Of a DNA stretch of 63,821 nucleotides, positions 38,309-41,360 are shown one piece after another. A program made the position numbers and the translations under genes. The stretch spans positions 1 to 63,821 of the forward strand of contig JAIPGD010000004.1 of assembly GCA_021736305.1 (NCBI GenBank), in the 5' to 3' direction. Origin of the DNA: Candidatus Izemoplasma sp. (GTDB lineage Bacteria > Bacillota_I > Bacilli_A > Izemoplasmatales > Hujiaoplasmataceae). The first letter of the stretch is position 1, and every line of letters starts with the position of its first letter. The notes below the pieces were generated by a model, which saw only the letters and a list, made by a program, of their open reading frames with translations, searched no databases and was not told the DNA's origin.

Positions 38309-38338
38309 GACTTAGTCATTTGACTAAGCCTTTTTTTT
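38309..38338. terminator. Terminator after glutathione peroxidase
   Basis: Hairpin CTTAGTCA (38311-38318) / TGACTAAG (38321-38328), followed by eight T. It also ends the convergent dehydrogenase gene. Confidence 0.85.
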
Positions 38339-39257
38339 ATAGTAAATATTTTACTTGTAATCCATCAAGATATCTTTTTAAGTTATCTTTCGTTAATTGA
38401 TATAATCTTTTCTTCATGTATTCGCTAGATGATGCATTATGCGGAGTAATAAAAACATTATCAAACTCCCATAATTTAGATGACTTTGGTAATGGTTCAG
38501 GATCGGTAACATCTAATGCTGCCCCTCGAATCTTCTTTTCTTCCAATATCTTTATTAAAGCATCTTGTACAATTATCTGTCCTCTGGCAATATTTATTAA
38601 TAAAGCATTTTTTTTCATTAGCGCTAGTTTTTTATAATCAAACAAATATTTAGTATTTTCATCTAATGGAATTGCTAGAATAAGGTAATCAGATTTTTGA
38701 ATAATCTTACTTAGCCCTAAATCATTTGTATATATTTCATCAAAATACTTAACAGGTTTACTTGATCTTCGATGACCAATAATGCTTTTAGGCGAAAAAG
38801 ATTGTAGCCTTTTAGCTACTTCTTTACCAATTGAACCAGTTCCAATTATACCAATAGTTGAATTATATATTTCGTATTCATTAGCAATAGGCTTCCAAAC
38901 TTTATTTTCCTTGTTTTTAACAAATGAATTTATATCTCGATTGAAATATAAAATTTTTGATACAACATCTTCTGCGATTGTAATTGAAAATATATCGCGT
39001 GCATTACTTATAAGTATTCCTTCATCTTTAAAAGATTTTATATCTACATTATCAAACCCAGCCATATATAATTGAACCCACTTAAGACTTTTATACTCTT
39101 TTAAGTTCACTTTTTTTAAAAGAGAATTTAAACCAAAGAATATTTCAATCTCTGAAGCAGACTTCAAATCATCGGTAAATTCAATCTTTGGAAAAGTTTC
39201 TTTCAGTTTTAAATAATCATCTTCTTCAATTAATCTTGTGTCGATAAAAACTTTCAT
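38337..39257 (-). CDS. D-isomer-specific 2-hydroxyacid dehydrogenase
   Basis: 306 residues. The NAD-binding Rossmann motif is IGIIGTGSIGKEVAKRL; later are the catalytic Arg in LINIARGQIIV, the Glu/Asp region and HNASSSEYM (catalytic His). It could reduce a 2-keto acid to D-2-hydroxyacid. It follows the short-chain reductase gene by 18 bases and so is probably in the SPT/SDR operon, though a biochemical link is not evident. Substrate unknown. Confidence 0.88.
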   Translation of the reverse strand: MKVFIDTRLIEEDDYLKLKETFPKIEFTDDLKSASEIEIFFGLNSLLKKVNLKEYKSLKWVQLYMAGFDNVDIKSFKDEGILISNARDIFSITIAEDVVSKILYFNRDINSFVKNKENKVWKPIANEYEIYNSTIGIIGTGSIGKEVAKRLQSFSPKSIIGHRRSSKPVKYFDEIYTNDLGLSKIIQKSDYLILAIPLDENTKYLFDYKKLALMKKNALLINIARGQIIVQDALIKILEEKKIRGAALDVTDPEPLPKSSKLWEFDNVFITPHNASSSEYMKKRLYQLTKDNLKRYLDGLQVKYLL

Positions 39258-39275
39258 TATTATAACCCCTTATTT

Positions 39276-40070
39276 TTAACCGTAAAGTTTTCTGACAAAA
39301 AATAAAACAATTTTTTCGGGTAAAAATTTATTTAAAAATCGAATAAGTTTGTATGATAAGCCTACTGTTTTTGTGATTGGTAGGTTTTTCCTTTTAATAT
39401 ATTTATGAATTGTTTTTGCAATTTTTATTGGTGCCATTCCATTTGCTTCATCTAGTTCCATTTTATTTATTGATCTTTGAACTCTTTCTCCATATAAATC
39501 ATTATCAACTTTAAATGGTTTTGTTCTATTTTTGGTAAAATCTGTTTTTATATCTCCTGGTAATAAAGCCATAACTTGAATGTTAAATGGTTTAAGTTCA
39601 ATTCTTAGAGCTTTGGTAAAAGCATCTATACTTGCTTTAGACATAGAATAGAAACCTTGAAATGGCAAAGCTATTTCTGAGGCAATTGAACTGATATTAA
39701 TAATTTTACCGTTTGAAGAATTTCTAATAAGTACTAATGCATGTTTAGTTAACAAAAATTGTCCATATACATTTACATTAAATATTTTCTTAACTTCATC
39801 TAGAGGTGTATTTTCTATAGCACCAGATATTCCCATTCCAGCAGAATTAATTAAAACATCTATTTTTTTGTATTTATCATATATTACTTCGATAGTTTTT
39901 TTTATCGCTGATTCATCAGTTATATCACATAATACATAATCAAAATCATAGCTAACTTTGGGATATGATCTTGATAATCCTATCACAGTATAGTTGAGTT
40001 TAGATAAATATTTTGCTGTTTCTAATCCTATCCCTGAAGAAGCACCTGATATCAAAACTATTTTATTCAT
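39276..40070 (-). CDS. Short-chain dehydrogenase, candidate 3-ketosphinganine reductase
   Basis: 264 residues of classical SDR fold: GASSGIG (9-15), NSAG (75-78), catalytic Ser (127/128), Y141 and K145 in YSMSK. The C terminus ends in a hydrophobic, basic stretch (NKFLPEKIVLFFVRKLYG) that could touch the membrane. It overlaps the serine palmitoyltransferase-like gene by eight bases, so the two proteins are made together. In sphingolipid synthesis the second step is reduction of 3-ketosphinganine by an SDR. Role is inferred from this coupling; SDR substrate is not readable from the sequence. Confidence 0.75.
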   Translation of the reverse strand: MNKIVLISGASSGIGLETAKYLSKLNYTVIGLSRSYPKVSYDFDYVLCDITDESAIKKTIEVIYDKYKKIDVLINSAGMGISGAIENTPLDEVKKIFNVNVYGQFLLTKHALVLIRNSSNGKIINISSIASEIALPFQGFYSMSKASIDAFTKALRIELKPFNIQVMALLPGDIKTDFTKNRTKPFKVDNDLYGERVQRSINKMELDEANGMAPIKIAKTIHKYIKRKNLPITKTVGLSYKLIRFLNKFLPEKIVLFFVRKLYG

Positions 40071-41283
40071 TGTCTTCTAATACCTTTAGTAAAGCTTCAT
40101 CATCTTCGGGCAAATTATTCAATACTTCCGCTATAATATCTATAGCTTCATCCATCATTTGAAATGTATGAGTTGATGTATAACTAGTTCTTATTAAACA
40201 TTCACCTTCAGGTGTCGCTGGTGGTAAAACCGGATTAACATATACGCCTTTTTCATATAGTAATTTACAAGCAACTAAAGTTCTTAAAAAAGAGTAAGTA
40301 TATATAGGAATGATAGGAACTATTGAATGGTCAATAATTTCTAATCCCTTTTTTAATAAGCCTTTGCGAACATAATCAGCTATTTCTAATAGCTTTTTTG
40401 GTCTTTCAGGTTCAGATTTTAAAATCCTTAATGCTTCTAAAGCAGTTGCTGCATTAGCGGGTGTTATAGCTGCACAGAAAATAAACGGTCTTGAATTATG
40501 TTTTACGAACTCAACAACTTCTTCACTAGCAGCCATATAACCACCTAGACTAGCTAATGATTTTGAAAAAGTCCCCATTATAATATCTACTTCATCTTCT
40601 AGACCAAAATACTCTGCAGTCCCACGACCGTTTTTGCCAAGAACTCCAAAGGCATGAGCGTCATCAACCATTACTCTTGCTCCATATTTTTTTGCTAAGT
40701 CAACAATTTCAGGTAATTTTGCAATGTCACCGGTCATAGAGAATACACCATCAGTAACTATTAGTTTCCCAGCCTCAGGATCGGCTGCTTTTAACTTAGT
40801 TTCTAAATCTTGCATATCTTGATGTTTATATCTTATCATTTTTCCATAAGATAATCTTGCGCCATCATAAATGCTCGCATGATTTTCGCGGTCACTAAAT
40901 ATTAAATCGTTTCTACCAGCAATAGCTGATATTATCCCTAAATTCGTTTGATAACCCGTCGAAAATGTCAAACATCCATCTTTATGTAAAAATTCAGCTA
41001 ACTCTTTTTCCAAATCTTGATGAATCGTTAATGTTCCGTTTAAAAATCTAGAGCCAGAAACTCCAGAGCCAAATTCTTTAATCGCTTTAACTCCAACTTC
41101 AATAATCCTAGGATCTCCTGTTAGACCTAAGTAATTATTAGATCCAATCATTATTCGTCTTTTGCCTTCCATAATCACTTCAATATCTTGTTTTGTTTCA
41201 AGCGCATGAAAGTACGGATAAACTCCTAAAGCCTTATATTTTTTTGTTAAATCATAATTGTAACATTTCTTGAATAAATCCAT
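40063..41283 (-). CDS. spt: Alpha-oxoamine synthase, serine palmitoyltransferase-like
   Basis: 406 residues, PLP fold type I. Characteristic SPT-like stretches are GVYPYFHALE, GSNNYLGLTGDPRI, GSGVSGSRFLNGTLTIH, FSTGYQTNLG, RENHASIYDGARLSYG, DDAHAFGVLG and GTFSKSLASLGG. PLP contacts visible are H135, D207/H210 and K241. The family condenses an amino acid with an acyl-CoA or acyl-ACP; the closest recalled relatives are bacterial serine palmitoyltransferases such as those of Sphingobacterium and Bacteroides, whereas glycine C-acetyltransferase has a different YLGLA..GFG.. segment. The acyl donor and amino acid remain unproven. ATG 41283 has AGGGGGAC upstream. Confidence 0.8.
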   Translation of the reverse strand: MDLFKKCYNYDLTKKYKALGVYPYFHALETKQDIEVIMEGKRRIMIGSNNYLGLTGDPRIIEVGVKAIKEFGSGVSGSRFLNGTLTIHQDLEKELAEFLHKDGCLTFSTGYQTNLGIISAIAGRNDLIFSDRENHASIYDGARLSYGKMIRYKHQDMQDLETKLKAADPEAGKLIVTDGVFSMTGDIAKLPEIVDLAKKYGARVMVDDAHAFGVLGKNGRGTAEYFGLEDEVDIIMGTFSKSLASLGGYMAASEEVVEFVKHNSRPFIFCAAITPANAATALEALRILKSEPERPKKLLEIADYVRKGLLKKGLEIIDHSIVPIIPIYTYSFLRTLVACKLLYEKGVYVNPVLPPATPEGECLIRTSYTSTHTFQMMDEAIDIIAEVLNNLPEDDEALLKVLEDNE

Positions 41284-41321
41284 GTTGTCCCCCTAAAAAA
41301 AAGTGATATAATCTGTTATTG

Positions 41322-41327
41322 ATTATA
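41322..41327 (-). promoter_or_regulatory. Probable -10 element of the SPT operon
   Basis: TATAAT on the minus strand, 38 bases before the ATG; a matching -35 is weak. It marks a separate start of transcription after the ABC exporter gene, from which no terminator is seen. Confidence 0.4.
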
Positions 41328-41360
41328 CCACATATTTTACTTAAATGAATGCAAAATTTT

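Follow-up and report, generated by a model that had tools for sequence, protein, structure and literature searches.

A probable two-gene sphingoid-base operon, coding for an SPT-type synthase and a KDSR-type reductase, in Candidatus Izemoplasma sp.

According to reviews, bacterial sphingolipids are found chiefly in Bacteroidota and in some Proteobacteria (PMC10191378). A 2024 metagenome study reported genes resembling serine palmitoyltransferase (SPT) in about 40 phyla, taking bacterial ceramide synthase (bCerS) and CerR as the remaining pathway, and its main text names neither Bacillota nor Firmicutes (PMC11334938). Do two overlapping genes of a Candidatus Izemoplasma genome encode the enzymes that make sphingoid bases, and by which route would the product become a ceramide? 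The genes lie in the window, the whole 63,821-nucleotide stretch of DNA analysed here, which is one of the 83 contigs (C32) in an assembly of 1.52 Mb, 96% complete. GC content is about 28–33% throughout the 64 kb contig; this uniformity, with the conservation of the pair through the family, led us to reject MAG contamination. Izemoplasmatales-like lineages are described as having no peptidoglycan (PMC10868615).

Both open reading frames are intact on the minus strand, where the earlier note had placed them. The first gene (40063–41283) codes for an SPT-type alpha-oxoamine synthase of 406 amino acids, and the second (39276–40070) for a short-chain reductase (SDR) of the 3-ketodihydrosphingosine reductase (KDSR) type, with 264 amino acids. 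Their overlap, ATGAATAA at 40063–40070 on the same strand, is exactly eight bases, as had been claimed, and recurs in many relatives. A ribosome-binding site for the synthase gene, AGGGGG, can be read from the sequence at 41289–41294 (minus strand). Further upstream, an inverted repeat followed by T8 (41303–41331, minus strand) is kept in about ten relatives, with the T-run 14–21 bases before the SPT start in the window and in relatives L039–L044, L046, and L048–L050. The repeat overlaps an extended −10-like TGnTATAAT, which in the window lies within the 5′ arm as TGGTATAAT (41322–41330, minus strand), and both arms have changed together in some relatives. It could be a terminator of the preceding gene, an operator, or both, or else a terminator and promoter in one. 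Downstream, 18 bp beyond the reductase, a D-2-hydroxyacid dehydrogenase family gene (38337–39257, minus strand) forms the third gene of the locus in part of the family. In an Izemoplasmatales-like subset (L045, L047, L051–L055, L058, and L059), SPT is preceded by an acidic protein of ~240–280 amino acids, one member of which gave no match in Pfam.

The top NCBIfam model for the synthase is SPT of the Bacteroidota type (520 bits), ahead of another SPT model (397) and of Kbl (389). On the same model, Bacteroides SPT scores 700, a Priestia SPT-like protein 522, and an SPT-like protein from a Clostridia assembly 514. The curated equivalog cut-off of 640 bits is tuned to Bacteroidota; because the synthase misses it, we name the protein SPT-type rather than a curated equivalog, although SPT is still its top model. 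The best sequence match in the PDB is Sphingobacterium multivorum SPT (E = 5e-123, 414 bits), with the best Kbl at 289 bits. An AlphaFold model of the synthase (pLDDT 91) superposes on S. multivorum SPT (3a2b) with TM-scores of 0.92/0.95 at 48% identity, ranking it first among all solved structures. The strong SPT features that the earlier note had listed are all there, namely the motifs GSNNYLGLTGDPRI, GSGVSGSRFLNGTLTIH, and RENHASIYDGARLSYG, the PLP-stacking H135, and the PLP lysine K241, the last two matching S. multivorum H138 and K244 in the alignment. Given that E-value and the conservation of the pair across dozens of genomes, the resemblance is not due to chance.

The note had also proposed phylogenetic placement as a check. 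In a maximum-likelihood tree of 56 sequences, from which cysteate fatty acyltransferase (CFAT) was left out and in which long branches affect several reference rows and none around the window sequence, the synthase falls within the SPT group (98/97), which excludes Kbl, BioF, and HemA alike. The clustering with glycine C-acetyltransferases (Kbl) or 8-amino-7-oxononanoate synthases that the note had named as refuting its reading did not appear. The 36 sequences from Bacilli and Clostridia form one clade (100/97), sister to the Bacteroidota SPTs (99/90), while a separate paralogue of the same genome, on contig C14, groups with Kbl. Compared with the active site of S. multivorum SPT (PMC10196870), K241, H135, S182, T238, G77, and S78 are kept, as are Y24 and F80 of the acyl site. 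The SPT-type residues Y24, S78, F80, and A271 are absent from Kbl and HemA, and BioF has S78 only. That the synthase is a Kbl or 8-amino-7-oxononanoate synthase (AONS) merely resembling SPT is scarcely credible: the three enzymes do share one fold family, and Kbl is 35–42% identical, but the tree, the HMM margin, the residues, and the Kbl-like paralogue contradict it. A HemA identity was rejected together with these two, on the tree and the residues. These data support an SPT-type synthase, predicted to act on serine and a long-chain acyl thioester.

Which amino acid the synthase uses is a finer question. A cysteate substrate would yield capnine-type sulfonolipids, and alanine or glycine would yield 1-deoxy bases by the same chemistry, with the reductase acting on the corresponding ketone. 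Alanine and glycine are also substrates of S. multivorum SPT, though poorer ones (PMC10196870); ketocapnine is reduced by related SDRs (PMC11211663); and near the substrate the window enzyme differs from S. multivorum in having S76 for A79, N50 for S53, C270 for S273, and I268 for M271, an isoleucine that Bacteroides SPT shares. We nonetheless regard another amino acid as unlikely, since the serine-contacting residues N49, G77, S78, H135, and S240 are conserved, and cysteate acyltransferases are far more distant from the window protein (238 against 414 bits in the PDB search, 30–32% identity). A CFAT identity for the synthase was dropped on the same scores, which place it closer to SPT. The caution of the earlier note over the amino acid and the acyl chain holds, with serine the favoured substrate on these residues.

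Among NCBIfam models, KdsR fits the reductase best (226 bits; the next model gives 186), and the other SDRs of the genome reach at most 98 on the KdsR model. The score lies below the curated equivalog cut-off of 400 bits, which no control genome passed either. It is also indecisive by itself, because a control SDR from Prevotella, which belongs to another family, reaches 222 on KdsR and 392 on its own model; that protein had been considered as a KDSR reference and was dropped for its family membership. The motifs required of KDSR (PMC9278070), GxxxGxG (G9–G15) and YxxxK, are present together with INSAG, so that the intact NSAG, Y141, and K145 described earlier are borne out, and 32 homologues all keep Y141 and K145. 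The hydrophobic, basic C-terminus, likewise described before, spans residues of about 225–264, with two predicted helices that may contact the membrane. In a fold model (pLDDT 93), the highest TM-scores among the matches listed, up to 0.88, are with 17beta-HSD1, whereas other SDRs come first by E-value. The protein is best read as a 3-ketosphinganine reductase, an identity that leans on linkage to SPT more than on sequence, as its score is below the curated cut-off.

That linkage is strict. SPT and reductase are both present in 35 of 61 relatives and both missing from the other 26, counting the 34% identical SDR of the SPT-negative genome G046 as a different gene. In every SPT-positive relative (35/35), the reductase adjoins SPT on the same strand, at most 25 bp away. 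Two other Bacilli families have the reverse order, reductase then SPT, so rearrangement has not broken the association. Among named genomes, a scan found 546 relatives, of which the 80 best are Izemoplasmatales-like assemblies followed by rumen and gut Clostridia; 61 of these 80 loci have the reductase, some loci lying on short contigs. The closest named loci belong to assemblies labelled Bacilli, Tenericutes, Candidatus Izemoplasmatales, and Candidatus Izimaplasma. With window-like SPT defined by E ≤ 1e-100, a threshold that Kbl-like matches do not reach, the gene occurs in 63 of 395 sampled genomes of the class Bacilli and in 29 of 392 sampled from the phylum. Within this phylum, the earlier note is mistaken in calling the pair unusual for a low-GC fermenter, given these 63 Bacilli genomes and the many named Clostridia and Izemoplasmatales assemblies; judging from gene content, sphingolipid synthesis looks common in this phylum and not exceptional.

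A few loci from the scan deserve mention in their own right. Assemblies titled Syntrophus aciditrophicus (L056) and Staphylococcus epidermidis (L074) carry window-like SPT–KDSR pairs, with SPT identities of 74% and 67%, respectively; the titles are apparently mistaken, unless the genes were acquired by transfer. A Priestia megaterium plasmid (L120) has an SPT-like gene, 48% identical to that of the window, with no adjoining reductase, and with acyltransferase and methyltransferase genes upstream on the opposite strand. An E. coli plasmid (L127/L170) has a cluster of SPT, ACP, epimerase, and acyl-AMP ligase genes adjoined by yghO (bCerS-like), which resembles a proteobacterial ceramide cluster.

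Taken together, the placement of the synthase in the SPT clade and the perfect co-occurrence and adjacency of the reductase uphold the earlier proposal that the pair supplies the two enzymes for dihydrosphingosine-type bases. Very probably, the two genes form a sphingoid-base operon converting serine and an acyl thioester to 3-ketosphinganine and then to sphinganine. A PLP-dependent SPT of the soluble, Bacteroidota-like type would condense L-serine with a long-chain acyl thioester to 3-ketosphinganine and CO2. The reductase, translated from the overlapping start, would then reduce the 3-ketone to sphinganine (dihydrosphingosine), presumably with NADPH. N-acylation of sphinganine and addition of a head group would follow, through enzymes outside the pair. 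Two bacterial routes lead on from 3-ketosphinganine, one reducing first (KDSR) and the other acylating first (CerS, then CerR) (PMC10865984), and the SPT–reductase operon fits the former.

What, then, would form the ceramide? Queries with the Rubrobacter and Bacteroides proteins found no bCerS in the window's genus (G000–G004, two of them single-contig), and no bCerS or CerR homologue was found in the SPT neighbourhoods searched. N-acylation in this genus, if any, would therefore fall to another enzyme. A bCerS-like GNAT was considered as the third enzyme and rejected, since it occurs in 17 of 35 SPT-positive and 16 of 26 SPT-negative relatives (p = 0.44, no association). The OlsB-type N-acyltransferase (PF13444) is found in 4 of 61 genomes and is not associated with SPT, and the eukaryote-type ceramide synthase profile PF03798 has zero matches in the relatives and zero in the controls too. 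Proteins 35–44% identical to the Bacteroides bCerS-like GNAT occur in the f2 genomes G034, G036, G038, G040, G042, G044, and G046, which carry no window-like SPT, and also in G020 and G026.

The neighbouring genes also bear on whether the product is a membrane lipid at all. Instead, the product might be an amino ketone or amino alcohol of short or medium chain length that goes into a signal or a secondary metabolite; related oxoamine synthases do act in the prodigiosin-type and CAI-1 pathways, and the lack of a detected ceramide synthase in the window's genus would agree with this. Against it, a pair spread over so many genera and families has the look of core lipid metabolism, the acyl-site residues Y24 and F80 match SPT, and the neighbourhoods examined hold no PKS or NRPS gene. 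Moreover, lipid genes adjoin SPT in several lineages: PAP2-type proteins in several separate contexts and, in one family, a DAG-kinase-like lipid kinase. We consider the secondary-metabolite reading very improbable and retain the sphingoid-base operon. PAP2_3 does not discriminate, as it is in nearly all relatives, SPT-positive or -negative alike.

A broader scheme is possible, although we put it forward tentatively and rather doubt it as a whole: many wall-less Bacilli and gut Clostridia would make sphingolipids with the SPT–KDSR operon in the eukaryotic order, reduction preceding acylation; in the window's genus, if not more widely, the acylating enzyme would have no relation to bCerS; and the products would perhaps serve as a sterol-like stabiliser of wall-less membranes. 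The conserved operon in Bacilli and in rumen and gut Clostridia, with no bCerS found in this genus, means that some sphingolipids of the gut and rumen may have sources other than Bacteroidota, and it makes the ceramide-forming step in Bacillota a testable question.

Among known systems, Acholeplasma axanthum belongs, like the window lineage, to the wall-less low-GC Bacilli. Its sphingolipids, reported in the 1970s, are said to be N-acylated sphinganine lipids with amide-linked hydroxy acids. By analogy, the SPT–reductase pair offers a plausible genetic basis for these old reports; Acholeplasma sphingolipids as such are already known, and what is distinctive here is the operon layout and a third step without bCerS. 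A wall-less Acholeplasmataceae isolate contains 3-OH C18:0 (4.1%) and 3-OH C16:0 (1.8%) fatty acids (PMC11122141), which would fit such hydroxy acids, a parallel that is suggestive only.

In the SPT–bCerS–CerR clusters (the Rubrobacter plasmid and the Caulobacter type), SPT starts the pathway, as here, and in Rubrobacter its gene likewise runs eight bases into the next one. In the window, the next gene codes for an SDR reductase and not for a GNAT acyltransferase, in neighbourhoods without bCerS or CerR. The Bacteroidota SPTs (S. multivorum, 3a2b/8guh, and Bacteroides) resemble the window enzyme in fold and in PLP and substrate residues, with 48–50% identity, and form its sister clade. In the Bacteroides and Parabacteroides loci examined, a DAG-kinase-family gene adjoins SPT and, in contrast to the window, no SDR does. 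The Bacteroides 3-ketosphinganine reductase (BT_0972; NCBIfam KdsR) shares GxxxGxG and YxxxK with the window SDR, for which KdsR is the top family model. By comparison, the window reductase scores below the equivalog cut-off and is genetically coupled to its SPT, which stands in a Bacilli/Clostridia clade of its own and in one operon with the reductase.
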